Positions 5,121-62,720 of a stretch of 64,000 nucleotides of DNA are shown in pieces. A model generated the notes under the pieces. The model ran no database searches. It was given only the letters and a program-made list of their open reading frames with translations, and was not told where the DNA came from. A program made the position numbers and the translations under genes. The DNA is taken from positions 3,286,001 through 3,350,000 of the forward strand of contig JAJTUQ010000003.1 in NCBI GenBank assembly GCA_021399445.1, written 5' to 3'. Origin of the DNA: Xylogone sp. PMI_703 (Eukaryota > Ascomycota > Leotiomycetes). Positions within the stretch are counted from its first letter, which is position 1; each line of letters opens with the position of its first letter.

Positions 5121-6889
5121 ATGCCGCACAAAGCTTTCAGTCGAGCCGAAGTAGCCAAACACAACACAGAAGATTCTACATGGTTTATAATAGATAGTAA
5201 AATTTACGATGTGACTGACTTTCTTGATGCTCACCCTGGTGGTGAGTTTGTCTTAAAACAAGTTGCCGGGACAGATGCTACGGAGGCTTTCTATAATCTG
5301 CATCGTCAAGAGGTCCTCCAGAAGTATGCCGACCTCTGCATTGGTACAGTCGAAGGCGAGAAACCGCAGATTATTGAACAGAAGATTGGAGATCTCAGCG
5401 TGGTACCATATGGCGAGCCTGCATGGCTAACCTCCGAGTTTAAGAGTCCTTACTATAATGACAGCCATCGACGACTCCAAAAGGCCCTTCGAGAGTTTGT
5501 GGAGACACATATCACACCAGAAGCGCAAGAGGCCGAGAAGTCCGGTGCATATATTAGCCAGGAGCTCATTGATAAAATGAGCAAGGCCGGACTTCTCCAC
5601 ATGCGACTCGGTCCTGGAAAGCACATGAAAGGAGTGGATCTACTTGGTGTGATGAAGGGAGAGGACTTTGATTATTTTCACGACTTGATTGCTGCCCAGG
5701 AATTAACGCGCGTTGCTGCCCGTGGATTTCAAGATGGGAATATGGCTGGGATGACGATCTCTCTGACAGCTGTTATGCAATGGGCCAACGATGAGGCTTG
5801 GAGGGATAAGATTGCCCAAGAGGTCCTTTCTGGAAAGAAGAAGATCTGTCTCGCTGTCACGGAAGCTTTCGCCGGTTCAGACGTTGCTGGAATACGCGCT
5901 ACCGCAACTAAGACCCCTGATGGAAAATACTATATTGTGAACGGCACCAAGAAGTGGATTACAAATGGTGTCTGGTGCGACTACTTTGTTACAGCTGTGA
6001 GGACTGGTAAGTTCAATCCTCATAATAGAGTGAGCTCTTATATTATCAGATAGGATTCTAACGATAGACCGGCTATTAGACAAGGGACTTAGTGTGTTGC
6101 TGATTGAGCGTGGAGAAGGAGTTGAAACCTCCCAAATAAAGACCTCCTATTCTACTGCTGCAGCAACTAGCTTTATTACATTCGACAATGTCAAAGTCCC
6201 AGTCGGGAACTTGCTTGGAGAAGAGAACAAAGGAATTTATGTTGTTCTATCCAATTTTAACCATGAAAGATTCATGATGACGTCCAGCACTGTTCGAATG
6301 AGCAGATTAGTGACAGAGGAATGCCTTAAATGGAGTTGCCAGCGGGTCGTTTTTGGAAAGAAACTCATTGACCAGCCAGTTATCAGGCAGAAGTGAGTTC
6401 CCAGCCTCTTTAGTAGCTTCACTATGATTGACTAACGATCCGTAGACTTGGAAAAATGATATCTCATGTTGAGTCCAATCAAGCATGGCTCGAACACATT
6501 TGCTATCAAATGAACCACATGACATACAAACAGCAGTCTACCCATCTAGCTGGACCCATCGGGCTGCTGAAGATGTTTGTTACACGCTCAGCCCATGAAA
6601 TTGCAGATGAAGCCGTTCAGATATTTGGTGGAAGAGCCCTCACTCAGACTGGAATGGGCCGAGTAATCGAGATGTTTCACAGAACGTAAGTTATGACGCA
6701 GTTTTAATACGATTCTAGAAGTTAACCGGTCATCCAATAGCTACAAATTCGATGCCATTTTGGGAGGTTCTGAAGAGGTAAGTTGTGATGCCACTATGTA
6801 TGACCAGAATGGTTACTAACTTTGATTAGATCTTGGCAGATCTTGGAGTAAGGCAAGCTATTAAGAATATGCCTAAGAGCGTATTATAG
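5121..6889 (+). CDS. Cytochrome b5 - acyl-CoA dehydrogenase fusion protein
   Basis: Five exons: 5121-6006, 6080-6392, 6446-6685, 6741-6777 and 6830-6889. The introns are 73, 53, 55 and 52 bp, and the product is 511 residues. Residues 1-85 are a cytochrome b5 heme domain with the HPGG motif (His38) and the second axial His61 (FYNLHR). The rest is an acyl-CoA dehydrogenase: N-terminal helical domain, middle beta domain (LAVTEAFAGSDVAGI, IVNGTKKWITNG) and C-terminal flavin domain ending ILGGSEEILADLG. This fusion architecture is widespread in filamentous fungi. The dehydrogenase oxidises acyl-CoA esters with FAD, and the b5 domain presumably hands electrons on. Substrate and compartment cannot be read from the sequence. 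For intron 1 the acceptor at 6079 is chosen because it lies about 18 nt after a CTAAC branch site. An acceptor at 6067 is also in frame and would add four residues. Confidence 0.9.
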
Positions 6890-54630: not shown

Positions 54631-55893
54631 TTGATTCTGCATTCTGCCTAGGTTATTTTTTGCGGCTATACGATAAGGCATGGCGATGGGGCTTAATGTT
54701 GGACGACCAAGGGAAAGGTATTCATGGCATGGCGGACTTTTGAGGGTTTTCTGGAAGGGATACGATAAGTGTTTTCTTTTGGTTCATTGCGAGGCCTCGA
54801 TAGATAATGTGGTTTGCGTTGTGCACTAAACATTTAGATATCTGGCATTTCTGTTTATAGTAGGCGGCACTCTTCAGCAACTTCAGTCTATCTCAGTCTA
54901 CATCTCTGCTCCTGCGTGTTCAACTTTCGCCAACTTATCTAGGTTCTTGACTCAATTAGACACACTCCCGCCATCTCAGACCTCACCTGTCATTTAGGTT
55001 ACACGCAAACCATTGAGTGAATCTACTCTCTCATCGAAAATCAGAGAGTGAAACAGGTTGAGATACTTGATATTCACTTTCAAGCCCACTCTCTTCTGTA
55101 CTAACTGACAGATTCGAACGCGCAACCACATAAGCAGCCAAAGACAAAACGTGATGATCGACTTGATCATCTGACCGCGAAGGCGACACCACTTTCGTGG
55201 AACTTCGGATCAAGGAAACGAGACAGAGAACAATCCAGATTTGGCACCGAGAAGCAGCAAGTGACGGACGCGCTGCCCTCTTCTCCCCCGACCTCGTGGA
55301 AGGAGTTATTGGCGGGGACGCTTGCCTTGAGTTATCGTACTAGACTGCGTCGGGACTAGCGCGCGATACGGATTGCGACCAGCACCTCCGCTCCACAGTT
55401 TAACGCATCATTCATATGGCCAGCTCGTTCCCGCCCACATCGAACAACAACGACAACCACCTCATCCATCACTGAAGTCATCGTAGCAATGTTATCTACC
55501 TGCTAGACTTTACGTCTAGCTTGAGAACATATCGTTTCTGCCCCCGTAGCCAGCGCGAGGAAGCCCGATATTCGTCACTCCAGCCTAAGCAGGTCCGCCG
55601 AAACCGCTATTACCTACCCCAGACCGCTTGCGACCGTAGTGATCGCGCAACACTCCACAGACTTATTCACTCAATCTATTCACCTCTCCGGCTGCTAGAT
55701 CAACCAAGTTCCTGGTCGTCAGTTCTCCGAGTCTGAAGAGCGTCCCGCAAGGATCGTCATCTCCATCAGAACACTCGGAGCTCAGTCACCACAGACTCGG
55801 GCTGTGTTTCTGCACCGCGCTCAATACAAACAACCTTCTCCAATCCATCCTTCACAAAGACGAACTTAGGTGCTGCTCTTGAAATCAGCCACC
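54631..55893. other. Intergenic region, AP-1 sigma to MAF1
   Basis: The first 250 bp are AT-rich 3' flank. From about 54880 the composition rises in C and the stretch looks like a long promoter/leader of MAF1, with several small upstream frames (for example 55521-55736) of no recognisable content. Confidence 0.4.
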
Positions 55894-56913
55894 ATGAAGT
55901 TCCTACCCCTCCGCGATTTCGACGACGTTACCAGCGCGCTGAACTTCGATACTCCCGACTGCCATGTCATTGGAGGTTGCGATTTGTACACCACAAAAGC
56001 TGCTGGTTCGGACAAGAAGCTCTATCGAAACATTGAGAATTCATTGGAATCGCAATATGAGTCTCTTCTGCGACTGTCGGCGTCCATGTCGCCACCCAAC
56101 AACCCATCTTCGGTATCTCCAGTCAACCTCTCCCGGTCAAGTCCGTTTGGACCCCTGAGTCAGACGTCAAGTCGACGCACTTTTGCGTACCTGATCGCGA
56201 CATTGAACGCAAGTCATCCGGACTATGACTTCTCACATGTCCTCAGGCCCACCGATTTCAGGCGGGAACGAAACTTGAAGGTTGTCATGAACACCATTGA
56301 CTCAACCCTGTACAATCTGAGGCCAAACACAGGTATGACCCTCCAAGTTCCATTTCAATCGAGCTATTCCTCTATGTCATCTTCTCCGACAACTACTCAA
56401 GTATGGGGCCCTCATATGTGGACCTTGATTGATAAGGAAATGGTTCTGAAGGAGTGCTCTGTCTACTGCTGGGCTCCCCCAGATGAACCATTTGAAGGTG
56501 AGGAGGGTGCGATATGGAGCCTGAACTACTTCTTTTTCAACAAGGAAAAGAAGCGAGTCGCGTACCTATACGTCCGAGGAGTGCCTGTGATGACTCACAG
56601 TCCAAGACGACCCAAAGGCATGCTGAAGAGAAGCTCCGGAATCAGTTCCGGTGCCAACAAGCGAGCTCGGTATTGGCTAGGTGACCAGGCATCCAAAGTC
56701 ACACATGAAGATGAAGATGTTGAGCATCCAGATGCCTCGTGGGACCGCGATGCTGAACTGGTATCTGATGATGATGACGACTTCATGTTTGATGGAGACG
56801 AGTTTGATGATGGATACGGTGACGAGATTGACGATGAGTCTGATGAACAGAGCTACAAAGGACGTATACGCGGTGTTAGTGAGGATATTGCTGCGTCAAT
56901 GGACCTTGAATAA
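55894..56913 (+). CDS. MAF1: Maf1, repressor of RNA polymerase III transcription
   Basis: An intronless 339-residue frame starts at the ATG at 55894. The three conserved Maf1 boxes are present. Box A is at the N-terminus (MKFLPLRDFDDVTSALNF, CHVIGGCDLYTTKA). Box B is at about 105-145 (YLIATLNASHPDYDFSHVL, RPTDFRRERNLKVVMNTID). Box C is at about 175-235 (VWGPHMWTLIDKEMVLKECS, VYCWAPPDEPFEGEEGAIWS, LNYFFFNKEKKRVAYL). A Ser-rich linker between A and B and a basic KGMLKRSSGISSGANKRAR patch are where phosphorylation and nuclear localisation act in the family, followed by a strongly acidic tail. Maf1 binds Pol III and shuts down tRNA and 5S transcription when TORC1 or PKA signalling falls. Its position about 2.5 kb from two unusual tRNA-Trp genes is probably coincidental. 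Confidence 0.95.
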   Translation: MKFLPLRDFDDVTSALNFDTPDCHVIGGCDLYTTKAAGSDKKLYRNIENSLESQYESLLRLSASMSPPNNPSSVSPVNLSRSSPFGPLSQTSSRRTFAYLIATLNASHPDYDFSHVLRPTDFRRERNLKVVMNTIDSTLYNLRPNTGMTLQVPFQSSYSSMSSSPTTTQVWGPHMWTLIDKEMVLKECSVYCWAPPDEPFEGEEGAIWSLNYFFFNKEKKRVAYLYVRGVPVMTHSPRRPKGMLKRSSGISSGANKRARYWLGDQASKVTHEDEDVEHPDASWDRDAELVSDDDDDFMFDGDEFDDGYGDEIDDESDEQSYKGRIRGVSEDIAASMDLE

Positions 56914-58563: not shown

Positions 58564-59369
58564 CTTCTGAACAGCTTGAAACAGCTTGGTATCAAGAGTT
58601 TAGATCCAAAGCCACGACCATAAACAACCAACGGAGACGGAGATCTAATAAAGAACGGAGCGGGAAGTTTATCCAGAAAATGAGGGGTTGAACAAAAAGA
58701 GGTAACTCTTTTAACTAGGGAACCACTCCGATTCAAATACTGGCCGGAAAATACACAAAATGAGGGGGAAAGAAGAGTCTAGATGATCTCATATCTAATC
58801 GCTATCATCACTCCCTTGCCTTACCATCTTTCTCCACCCGTTTGCAGTAACACGCGGATGGCATGGTCCCGGAATACGGCACCTCGCATAATACACTTGC
58901 ACCGTTTTGATAGCAGACTGAAGAAAGGGTTGTCGCCCGAGAATAATCGGGAAATCAATCGACCCAGTGAGGAAAGTAGAATCCCACAGTTCACTACTAA
59001 CCTATATTGAACGCGCGCCACGATGAGGAACTGAACTATTACCGGCTGTTCTCTTCGTGCATCACGCAATAAGTGGCAAGATGGGACGCATATCGCGAAA
59101 GAAGTGAAATCGTCCTTTTCCTTTTCCAGCATCATTCATGGCAGCCATTACAAGAGGAGGGAACGTGAAGATGAACTCAGGGGCTGTAACACAATTGGCT
59201 TAATCATCAAATAGCGTCTTTATAAATGAAGGTAAAAGATGATTACTTACATGAGTTCCACAAATAATGTACTGTAACCCAGGCGCTTTGTGAAAACAGT
59301 GCTATGATAATGGAGCTCAATCAATTGCTGCATGTATATTGGGATAAGCAGTCACACGCTAACAAAAAG
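58564..59369. other. Intergenic region between methyltransferase and first tRNA-Trp gene
   Basis: The region contains the methyltransferase promoter. Beyond about 58800 it is AT-rich with no coding frame of interest. I see no clear upstream Pol III element other than the A/T-rich leader immediately before 59370 (aacaaaaag). Confidence 0.4.
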
Positions 59370-59500
59370 GGACCTGTGTCGCAATTGGTAGCGAGTCTGA
59401 TTCCAGTCCAGAAGGTTGTCCGGTAGGCATCAGAATCACAAGGTCAATTAATTGAATCCGAGAACTGACATCTAAAACAGTTCGAGTCGGGCCGGGTTCA
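59370..59500 (+). tRNA. tRNA-Trp(CCA), interrupted in the T-arm (copy 1)
   Basis: Without the 58-bp insert (59423-59480) a 73-nt cloverleaf forms. The acceptor stem is GGACCTG with CGGGTTC (59493-59499) and discriminator A (59500). The D-stem is TCGC/GCGA with loop AATTGGTA. The anticodon stem is TCTGA/CCAGA with loop TTCCAGT and anticodon CCA at 59403-59405, and the variable loop is AGGTT. The T-stem is GTCCG (59418-59422) with CGGGC (59488-59492), and the T-loop TTCGAGT starts right after the insert. The anticodon and A73 fit tRNA-Trp, and the overall sequence resembles plant and animal tRNA-Trp. There is no intron at the normal 37/38 site. Oddities are an A31-C39 mismatch, a T10-A25 pair instead of G10-C25, and a weakened A box (TGTCGC instead of TGGCGC). 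The B box GTTCGAGTC is completed by the last G of the insert. A run of eight T follows at 59522-59529. Confidence 0.85.
59423..59480 (+). other. Spliceosomal-type intron inside tRNA-Trp copy 1
   Basis: The 58-bp insert lies between tRNA positions 53 and 54. It begins GTAGGC directly after an exonic G, contains ACTGAC (59464-59469, matching the fungal branch consensus CTRAC) and ends ACAG. The branch A to acceptor distance is about 13 nt, similar to introns of nearby protein genes. Because a G lies at both ends, the boundary can slide by one base. It is unrelated in sequence to the insert of copy 2. Confidence 0.7.
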
Positions 59501-62500
59501 AATCCCAAATATACTCCCAAATTTTTTTTGTTACTTCAATTTATTGCTTTGTCCTTTCTTTGTTCTTTTTGCTTGTCCAACATGTTTGCATGCGTGCAGC
59601 CAATTGTAAGCGAGCGGACAGTCTTTTTATCGTAGGTAGACACGGCACCACACATGTTGTTCGGCAAGCAGCATGATCATAATCGAACTGAGTTAAGCTA
59701 CATGAGAGTTGCTTGAAAGATATGCTACTGAAAGGTAGGATCCGGTACAAAGATCAACTTAATAGCTTACCTGGCTCTTTTTGAGCAACTCACAAGTATG
59801 CTGTTAATAATCAAAGTGAGCATTTTAATCAATACCCGGTGACCACACGCCTGGTTGACTTAACAACCCAGCAATGATACCATCAAAGTCAAAAATCCTG
59901 CCCATTAAAGATAAACACAAACTCGCCCTTAAGCCGTGACTCAACCACCAGAGAAATGTGAGTCTTATACCATGATAGTCGTGTTGTTGGCGCTGATAGA
60001 GCCCGAAAGTCTTACAGTCAATCTTAACCATGGGAGGCAGACATTGTCGATGCCGACTATGTAACAAATGATCAAGATCCTTCATACTTCAGAATGTATG
60101 TTGGCCAGACAAAAGATTCTAGAGGGTCTATTTCATCCGGTTACGCTTCTCCTATACCCAGAGGAAACAATAACACCCTCCACTTTATATCACCTGGAAG
60201 ACAATGGCTTATGAAAAACAAACTTTCTAAGGTCCTAGTCATTTCCTGCGAGTGAAGAGAATTGAAAACTTCCATCCATTAGACTTTTCAGCAAAGTATT
60301 CCGGATACTGTCTTTTACTTCGTGTTTTGATTTATATCAGACTGAGCTCCTAAAGAGTATCTCCATGACAAAGAGGTGGCAAGGACATCAAATCCAGGAC
60401 CCCATATTTCAAGGGTTGATACAACCGGAGTAGAGAGGTCGGTTTATGTTGCAATTCTAGATCGGTGGGCCGATATCGCATTCGCGCCATTCATAAACAA
60501 AGATGCAAAACAAGGAGGATAATTTCGAGGTCCATTGGCTCGGGAGGGTTTTGGAAGAGCTGTTTGAAAAGCTTCTACCGTCAAAATCTCGTCCTCTTGG
60601 ATACAATCACTGTCTGAACCGCATAGCTGTCCAGCAGCGAAGATGAAATTGTTGCGGAACTGAGAGTGGAAATCCAGGATTACCATAGATTGCTTGACAC
60701 ACCCGCGTTCGCTCTCAGAATATTCTTTGCTAGAGTTGGTTCTGCTCTCGATGGCGTAAGCAATAGTCAGCCTCTTTTAGCCCAAAGTGACACCGAATAG
60801 CTTTACCGTGGTGGATACAGAGATTGGTCCTAAAGAGCAGGAATCCTTTGTGTGGACTTTTGATTTTCCGGAATTCCACCTTTAGCACATGAGAATTATG
60901 CTTGTAGTGAAACAGAAGCTGGTGACATTCAGTTCATTAAATGATATTATCTGCGTGGCTAGCTCTATCACCAGAACTATAGTCATATAACCGAGCAAAA
61001 GGGGAGTATCTCGACTCTAGATAGGCAACACCACCTTCCAGCATACATAATATTCAATGCAAGCAGAGAAGGTAGCTCTTTTTCTTCTTAAAAAAAATAA
61101 GGCTGATAAAAGGAAGTTCTTGCGACAAAAGAGTTCGGGCCATACAGCTATCGCGTCGTGGCGTATGCTGTATGCCCTACATCTCCCCTAATATATCAGT
61201 GTTTTATCCACTATTAGGATTGGCTCCATTATCCCACCTCCAGAACAATAATTGACCTGACACTCTGCCATGAGAGGCGCTGTTTACTGTTCCTTGAATA
61301 GGTGTTGCTTACTTGGGGCTATATAGCAATCCTTGGCCGCTTTCTCGTCGTGAAGTTGTTTTTAGCGTGAATTGTATAAACTCGGTGCTTGGTGAGGTCT
61401 AACACCTCATTCGATTAGTATGCCCAATTATTTGAGGCTATCTGTAAAATTGCACAGTAAACTGCTGTTAAACAGTTCACTAAAAGATGTTTTTCTATGG
61501 AGTCCATGAGCGGAAGAAGCCATGCCTGGTGTACTAGAGAAGGTCTCTGAGATAACACTTTACAAACGGAATAGAACTTATGGTGCATTCCATGCAACAA
61601 AGGACATTAGTGTGTTCTGTTTATAGAGCTTCCGCGCTTCTCAAAAGCTACGTGGAGCTCCCATAGAAGCAGTTCACAAAGACATGAGAAGAGACGTCCT
61701 CGTGTTTGTCAAGAACCACACTACCTACAACTTGAAGACCAAAATGCAGTATGGAAAACAGGTGCTAGAGAGAAAAGAAAAGTATCTTCAGATGAAAAGC
61801 GTATAAAGTATTTATTCTGCTAAATTGCGAGTAACAATAGGTTTACCTTTGCATTCCGCGGTGTCATATCACCTAAAAGATCGGATATAGGCAGTGGTAA
61901 ACTGTCTATCTATCGATGATACTTCACAAAATGAGACACTCACATATTCTAGCTATAGACCGTTCCGAAGATGATGCAGCTCGTTTTTTGCACTAGAATT
62001 CGTGGCCATACGCCTGGTGTATCGGCTTACCAGGATACAGAGAAGCGCTTTTAGAAGTGGGGGAAAAGATGAATACACTCGTAGATTTTATCACATAAAG
62101 CGTTACTCGCGTGAATCATTCTAACTTCTTCAGAGATGAAAAGGATATAGACCGGATCTTCTGAAACAATTAGGTCAATAATTAGAGTAATCAGAATCAT
62201 GAATAAGCTTAGAACTTGATGTTAGCTTTCAGAGAGCAGTGAAAAAGCCTACTATCTGGAGGAATGGCTTTGAATATGCATTCCCTTCTATCGTAGCTTT
62301 TCATATAATTACCACTCTGCACAATTAATCTGTTTCTTTCAGGGCAAAATAAGATGCTTATAAAAACCATCGTAACCTAATTAAGTACACCTACATAAAA
62401 CTACATTGCTGAGCTCCCTTTGCAGCCACCCAATGCTTTTGTGTTGTATCATGCAAGTCCCCGCTAGGATAGCCAATTGAACCAATCAAAATTGGTTTTA

Positions 62501-62563
62501 GTAAGCCTCTCAGCTAAAGTCATTTATATAGCCAAATAGGCGCCACAAAATTTCAACAAATAA
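59501..62563. other. AT-rich gene-free interval between the two tRNA-Trp genes
   Basis: No protein gene is supported over these 3 kb. The longest frames (59825-60085 and 60444-60686, both minus) are short, without introns that would extend them and without recognisable domains. A T8 run at 59522-59529 is the likely terminator of the upstream tRNA. I see no terminal inverted repeats or transposase remnants. Confidence 0.4.
59522..59529 (+). terminator. Pol III oligo-T terminator for tRNA-Trp copy 1
   Basis: Eight consecutive T lie 21 nt after the discriminator base of the tRNA. In fungi a run of six or more T on the coding strand ends Pol III transcription efficiently. Confidence 0.65.
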
Positions 62564-62692
62564 GGACCCGTGTCGCAATGGTAGCGAGTCTGATTCCAGT
62601 CCAGAAGGTTGTCCGGTATGTGGAAAGAAAAAAATCGAATAAGAGGTTCAAATAGACTAATAAGCGATGTAGTTCGAATCGGGCCGGGTTCA
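62564..62692 (+). tRNA. tRNA-Trp(CCA), interrupted in the T-arm (copy 2)
   Basis: Removing the 57-bp insert (62616-62672) leaves a 72-nt tRNA. The acceptor is GGACCCG (62564-62570) with CGGGTTC (62685-62691) plus A73. The D-arm is TCGC-AATGGTA-GCGA. The anticodon arm is TCTGA-TTCCAGT-CCAGA with CCA at 62596-62598, and the variable loop is AGGTT. The T-stem is GTCCG/CGGGC around loop TTCGAAT. Compared with copy 1 the tRNA halves differ in three places only: C6 for T6 (pairs with G either way), one T fewer in the D-loop, and A for G in the T-loop. All three preserve the fold. The gene has the same A31-C39 mismatch and T10-A25 pair. The B box GTTCGAATC spans the insert end. A T6 run lies at 62715-62720. 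Standard tRNA finders that allow an intron only at 37/38 would probably miss both copies. Confidence 0.87.
62616..62672 (+). other. Spliceosomal-type intron inside tRNA-Trp copy 2
   Basis: The 57-bp insert has a strong fungal donor GTATGT, a branch-like ACTAAT (62656-62661) about 13 nt before the end, and acceptor GTAG. The exonic base before the donor is G, as preferred at 5' splice sites. It is A-rich and unrelated to the insert in copy 1 apart from these signals. An internal GGTTCAAAT resembles a B box but lacks the following CC. Confidence 0.75.
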
Positions 62693-62714: not shown

Positions 62715-62720
62715 TTTTTT
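62715..62720 (+). terminator. Pol III oligo-T terminator for tRNA-Trp copy 2
   Basis: Six T lie 22 nt after the discriminator base, nearly the same spacing as in copy 1. A second T6 run follows at about 62738-62743. Confidence 0.6.

Follow-up and report, generated by a model that had tools for sequence, protein, structure and literature searches.

A group of split tRNA genes in the leotiomycete fungus Xylogone sp. PMI_703 very probably consists of working nuclear genes whose RNA polymerase III (Pol III) precursors would carry short U2-type introns and lose them through the spliceosome, as judged from the DNA. Fungal nuclear tRNA introns lie at the 37/38 site, where the tRNA splicing endonuclease cuts on a structural cue, and tRNA splicing and mRNA splicing are regarded as distinct pathways. 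A survey of the open-access literature, covering titles and opening abstracts of the papers listed, yielded no report of spliceosomal introns in nuclear tRNA genes. We infer three parts of this reading: that Pol III transcribes the genes, that splicing takes place in the cell and that the spliceosome carries it out.

In the proposed route, Pol III would transcribe the split genes into precursors holding U2-type introns outside the anticodon-loop site. The spliceosome would read a GTRNGY donor, a YTRAY branch site and a YAG acceptor and excise an intron of 50-58 nt with precise joining of the exons, after which the tRNA would fold and then be trimmed. In Glu(TTC) and one Pro(AGG), a 37/38 intron would additionally be cut by the tRNA endonuclease.

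The tRNA-Trp pair

The first-pass annotation had described a tRNA-Trp(CCA) gene (here copy B) with a T-arm insert, and re-reading of the sequence bears out its coordinates, 62564..62692 of the window (the whole 64,000-nt stretch of DNA analysed), together with the 57-bp GT-AG insert between positions 53 and 54 whose removal leaves a tRNA-Trp(CCA). A second tRNA-Trp(CCA), absent from that annotation, lies at 59370-59500, 3.2 kb upstream in the same window (copy A). It was found by whole-genome DNA searches with the spliced tRNA and the flanked gene as queries, which returned copies A and B only. The features of the pair are as follows, with the basis of each in brackets.

59335..59339, + strand: TATA-like stretch, 35 nt 5' of copy A (promoter-signal tabulation)
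59370..59422, + strand: tRNA-Trp(CCA) copy A, exon 1 (DNA search, alignment, stem pairing)
59423..59480, + strand: copy A intron, 58 nt, GTAGGC...ACTGAC...CAG, site 53/54, unrelated in sequence to the copy B intron (alignment, signal count)
59481..59500, + strand: copy A, exon 2 (alignment, stem pairing)
59522..59529, + strand: T8 run, Pol III-type terminator of copy A (sequence, terminator tabulation)
62525..62530, + strand: TATA-like stretch, 38-39 nt 5' of copy B (promoter-signal tabulation)
62564..62615, + strand: tRNA-Trp(CCA) copy B, exon 1, positions 1-53 (sequence, local Rfam scan, exon alignment, stem pairing)
62616..62672, + strand: copy B intron, 57 nt, GTATGT...ACTAAT...TAG, site 53/54, with 12 nt after the branch A (alignment, signal count)
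62672..62680, + strand: B box rebuilt over the acceptor, the intron's final G substituting for G53, GTTCGAATC (sequence, B box match)
62673..62692, + strand: copy B, exon 2, positions 54-73, including discriminator A73 (Rfam scan, alignment, stem pairing)
62715..62720, + strand: T6 run, Pol III-type terminator of copy B (sequence, terminator tabulation)

The copy B insert (62616-62672, 57 nt) reads GTATGT...GACTAATAAGCGATGTAG, and its removal leaves a 72-nt tRNA-Trp(CCA) in which 20 of the 21 stem pairs are formed. The pairing count agrees with the earlier statement that A31-C39 is the only unpaired stem position; the same mismatch is present in copy A, which also forms 20/21 pairs when spliced. 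Each spliced copy folds into a cloverleaf with the correct anticodon, and each intron has the U2-type features of a GTRNGY donor, a YAG acceptor and a branch motif near the acceptor. The copy B junction has one alternative placement that is equally good (shift −1, GG..TA) and gives an identical product. In a local Rfam scan with laxer filters, RF00005 matched copy B over its full length (62564-62692) with 29.0 bits, equal to the gathering score, and placed the insert in the T loop. Copy B went unreported by RF00005 in the whole-window scan at gathering cut-offs with fast filters and in the genome scans, and ARAGORN called no tRNA over the window.

Comparison of the two genes shows where conservation lies. 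The exons are identical in 70 of 73 columns, with 19 of the 20 letters of exon 2 kept despite the randomised intron before it, whereas the introns share 29 identities against a mean of 32 for shuffled introns, the real score being reached in 109 of 500 shuffles. The 50 and 100 nt upstream of the genes share 30 and 56 identities (28 and 57 when shuffled), and the 50 and 100 nt downstream share 29 and 65 (28 and 59). Conserved in the pair are both exons together with the donor, the branch motif and the AG, while introns and flanks approach shuffled letters. Because copy A is interrupted at the identical site, has nearly the same exons and holds an insert of unrelated sequence that still keeps GT, branch motif and AG, the observation on copy B is confirmed as real and beyond chance. 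The insert lies at the edge of the B box, where the acceptor G takes the place of G53, and an intron between G53 and T54 would be tolerated in transcription because its last G rebuilds the B box of the gene. A gene for the Pol III repressor Maf1, whose protein is 89% identical to one from the leotiomycete Scytalidium lignicola, is present at 55870-56913 of the window, 2.5 kb from copy A, probably by coincidence.

Other split genes and their signals

Besides the Trp pair, 14 further split genes were found, which gives a total of 16 split tRNA genes with 17 spliceosome-type inserts of 50-58 nt at eight sites (14/15, 19/20, 21/22, 25/26, 31/32, 32/33, 53/54 and 63/64; none at 37/38). Leads came from fragments at the end of the RF00005 genome lists, from 3' halves returned by a pattern search and, for the third Pro(AGG) gene, from a DNA search with spliced tRNAs as queries; GT or AG was required by no search except the T-arm screen at 53/54, and insert positions follow standard tRNA numbering, assigned by hand. 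The further genes are listed below.

Arg(TCT), two genes: insert at 25/26
Glu(TTC), two genes: insert at 63/64 and a separate 13-nt intron at 37/38
Thr, four genes, two Thr(AGT), one Thr(CGT) and one Thr(TGT): inserts at 21/22
Pro(AGG), two genes: inserts at 19/20
Pro(AGG), third gene (Pro_3; L160, L161), C20:4000593-4000796, − strand: GT..AG inserts at 14/15 and 32/33 and an ordinary 19-nt intron at 37/38
Arg(ACG), three genes: inserts at 31/32
Two of the Arg(ACG) genes (L143, L144), C1 ~6080983-6081108 and ~6083438-6083561, − strand: inserts ending CTG and CCG, without AG; exon anticodon stem fully paired

All 17 inserts begin with a GTRNGY donor. A YTRAY branch followed by 9-17 nt after its A is present in 16, the exception being ArgTCT_1, which has no standard motif near its 3' end, and a YAG acceptor in 15, the exceptions being ArgACG_1 (CTG) and ArgACG_2 (CCG); these two Arg(ACG) copies may be dead or may use an unusual acceptor. 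Donor, branch and YAG occur together in 14/17 inserts. Letter shuffling produces the donor at a rate of 0.2%, the branch at 12% and YAG at 3%, and all three in none of 34,000 shuffles; the 17 inserts are not independent, as related genes are counted apart and the distinct sites number eight. Three of the Thr genes, for Thr(AGT), Thr(CGT) and Thr(TGT), form a cluster at C12:4218333-4220371 with a D-loop intron in each, and these introns resemble one another at the 3' end, around CTAAC-TTGAA. Spliced ThrTGT and ThrCGT have two stem mismatches (19/21 pairs). For Glu(TTC), the advance prediction of CGGA directly after TAG was wrong by letter, GGTATCGGA being found there with the acceptor strand present, and the donor, assumed to be GTATAC, is GTATGT.

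The ordinary 37/38 introns of the same genome lack such signals. Among 31 of them there is no GT..AG intron and no GTRNGY donor, and their lengths run from 9 to 51 nt with a median of 18; the set was drawn from 50 parsed tRNA matches by a parser that permits an insert at 37/38 only. These introns are plentiful (31/50 parsed tRNAs, loci L015-L086), with Lys, Ala, His, Gln, Val and Arg among the isotypes. Likely coding introns in the window, chosen by open frames and intron-like ends and therefore a rough yardstick, number four (starts 1560, 6007, 6393 and 42824; 53-61 nt). They carry GTRNGY, CTAAC or CTAAT, and YAG, with the branch in range in three; the intron at 6007 has its CTAAC closer to its end. 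Among 22 intron-like candidates in the window the branch is in range in four, one being the Trp copy A intron itself, against one of nine in the control.

Fifteen of the inserts were tested for junction shift, and none can be placed in more than one further way without altering the product. ARAGORN was discarded as a junction test since it also accepts 66 of 90 deliberately mis-spliced forms, as was stem pairing alone, which often ties at several shifts and in ProAGG favours other shifts (21 pairs) over the true one (20). The junctions are fixed by conserved loop letters and intron-free twins, not by software calls. Likewise set aside was a screen of the whole genome for GT..AG introns in the T arm at 53/54, which gave 27 matches against 62 for the reversed-pattern control; not one of the 25 matches besides the Trp pair closes both stems.

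Transcription signals were tabulated for 15 gene sequences, with Pro_3 outside the table. A B box is present in all 15 and a strict A box in 12 (all but the two Trp genes and ArgACG_2); the A box of Pro_3 is interrupted by its insert at 14/15. A run of at least five T residues follows 5-22 nt downstream in 15/15 genes, and a TATA-like stretch lies within 60 nt upstream in 9/15, ThrCGT being judged on 12 upstream letters only. TTTT, which could weaken Pol III transcription, occurs in 2/17 introns and TTTTT in none.

Uninterrupted genes, twins and decayed copies

The split copies might instead be dead relics, with the real tRNAs made from uninterrupted genes that the searches missed, a reading that we consider improbable. 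Normal tRNA-Trp genes elsewhere in the genome had been named in the first-pass annotation as one of the marks of such a relic; the 25 contigs (50.1 Mb) were searched with DNA queries and tRNA patterns, which, as far as they reach, brought up no uninterrupted tRNA-Trp. The spliced forms of Trp, Arg(TCT), Pro(AGG), Arg(ACG) and Glu(TTC) gave no full-length uninterrupted match in the DNA search, which speaks against relics; the same search recovered, for the Gly(GCC) control, the five known intact genes and one weaker Gly-like match. The longest matches spanning a junction were decayed Glu-like or Arg(TCT)-like copies. On the side of relics, the search tool scores some candidates only and could have passed over an intact copy, and the RF00005 genome list omitted the same five intact Gly(GCC) genes; absence from that list was accordingly dropped as a sign of splitting.

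The pattern searches also argue against a hidden Trp gene. A pattern of D loop, CCA anticodon and T loop gave 11 matches when 37/38 inserts of up to ~29 nt were permitted (10 in the reversed-pattern control), none recognised by eye as a tRNA, and 19 with longer gaps (control 12), of which only copies A and B were recognised by eye. Its generic version recovers 26 of 40 tested tRNA loci of the genome, so that a Trp gene with an unusual D loop could escape. A fixed tRNA 3'-half pattern with no demand on the D loop recovered nine of the ten intron-free, short-variable-arm, non-Met tRNAs among 50 parsed and is blind to a Trp gene with a 37/38 intron; it gave 33 matches (control 10), among which the CCA anticodon was absent. 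These matches comprise nine intact known tRNAs, 11 3' halves of split genes and 13 unrecognised sequences, to be set beside the ten of the control. Four identical matches to this pattern, TTGGGGGCAATAGG..., on contigs C5, C7 and C24, are perhaps a dispersed repeat. A second 3'-half pattern (Asp, Gly, Glu) gave 18 matches (control 17), five being the intact Gly(GCC) genes and the other 13 unrecognised as tRNA. The combination of CCA anticodon and T loop (350 matches against 243 in the control) proved too loose for use. ARAGORN called a tRNA-Trp at L017, but this locus parses as a tRNA-Val(CAC) carrying an 18-nt intron at 37/38. In viral and prokaryote contigs, scans with a pattern for the junction of Trp exon and donor gave no match. 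Trp and, by these searches, Arg(TCT), Pro(AGG), Arg(ACG) and Glu appear to depend on split genes.

Twins with and without inserts exist for two isotypes. Spliced ThrAGT_1 and ThrAGT_2 agree with two uninterrupted Thr(AGT) genes (L001, L002) in 72 of 72 letters; the presence of these intact genes is in keeping with relics, as the cell could do without the split Thr(AGT) copies. Although cut at differing sites (19/20 in two; 14/15, 32/33 and 37/38 in the third), the three Pro(AGG) genes all yield the same 72-nt tRNA, letter for letter. At 19/20, Pro_3 thus represents the empty site, as do the two genes cut at 19/20 for the 14/15 and 32/33 inserts. The genome searches found no intron-free twin of Trp or Arg(ACG), and the junctions of these genes rest on conserved loop letters.

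Further points favouring relics are the missing AG of two Arg(ACG) copies and the existence of Glu and Arg(TCT) copies that look decayed on inspection by eye (L156-L159). Glu-like L156 reads through 63/64 and Arg(TCT)-like L158 and L159 through 25/26, while Glu-like L157 carries a different insert; the read-through stretches (C21:5038121, C12:89379 and C19:7491882) are 5'-damaged as well as decayed by eye. The insert-free copies may have arisen from spliced RNA by retrocopying, or may be old duplicates without introns. Against relics stand the preserved exons between randomised introns and flanks in the Trp pair and a paired change across the Arg(ACG) intron, where T28-A42 in ArgACG_1 corresponds to C28-G42 in ArgACG_3 on either side of the insert.

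Route of removal and biological reach

Even less probable is that the tRNA splicing endonuclease, in its usual or a variant form, cuts out the inserts at non-canonical sites, as in archaea and Cyanidioschyzon. The many 37/38 introns of this fungus would fit such a route. Like canonical 37/38 (SEN) introns, the inserts interrupt nuclear tRNA genes, but they occupy eight other sites, measure 50-58 nt and carry GT-branch-AG signals; none of the 17 lies at 37/38, and Glu(TTC) and Pro_3 have separate introns there. GT, branch and AG play no part in the endonuclease route as known, and the 31 ordinary introns parsed from this genome lack such signals. A complete BHB motif (a 4-bp central helix between two 3-nt bulges) was present in 0/15 introns tested, the best reaching 3/4 (Trp copy A), with the two Pro_3 introns left out. 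BHB-cut introns at odd sites are documented elsewhere: archaeal and Cyanidioschyzon merolae tRNAs have ectopic BHB introns in the D, T and acceptor arms (PMC3978253). The present inserts resemble these in lying outside 37/38 and differ from them in having spliceosomal signals and no complete BHB in the 15 tested.

Self-splicing group I and II introns have a catalytic core of some hundreds of nucleotides; the inserts are 50-58 nt long, and an Rfam scan of the window gave no match at the gathering score. An assembly error or contaminant can be dismissed almost entirely, since, although the evidence comes from one assembly only, the split genes are spread over several multi-megabase contigs (C1, C12, C19, C20) that also bear intact tRNA genes, and close copies carry differing inserts.

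For removal by the spliceosome there are partial precedents. The fission yeast U6 snRNA gene, a Pol III transcript, has an mRNA-type intron, as here, but its host is an snRNA and not a tRNA. The rDNA of the lichen fungus Cladonia grayi contains a 57-bp spliceosomal intron (PMC8527467); the likeness is a short spliceosomal intron in an ascomycete structural RNA gene, and the difference is that Pol I makes the rRNA.

Spliceosomal removal of the Trp intron, as put forward in the first-pass annotation, gains support as a reading of sequence from the second Trp copy and the 14 further split genes with like signals, and additionally from the Thr and Pro twins, the lack of a complete BHB in 15 introns and the failure to find an uninterrupted tRNA-Trp. 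It is likely that the spliceosome is obligatory for translation in this lineage, with Trp(CCA), and probably Pro(AGG), Arg(TCT), Arg(ACG) and Glu(TTC), made only from genes with mRNA-type introns, and with Glu and one Pro (two spliceosomal introns and one at 37/38) processed by the spliceosome and the tRNA endonuclease together. Intron positions vary between genes for the same tRNA, and introns would therefore have been gained or lost in Pol III genes. Because intron-bearing and intron-free twins share one genome, this would be a natural system in which to watch introns enter and leave non-coding genes. tRNA finders restricted to anticodon-loop introns may report tRNAs as missing in such genomes. 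If the reading is true, spliceosome-dependent tRNA genes would break the divide between tRNA and mRNA splicing, Pol III precursors would be spliceable at many sites, and the tRNA supply of the fungus would be tied to its splicing capacity.
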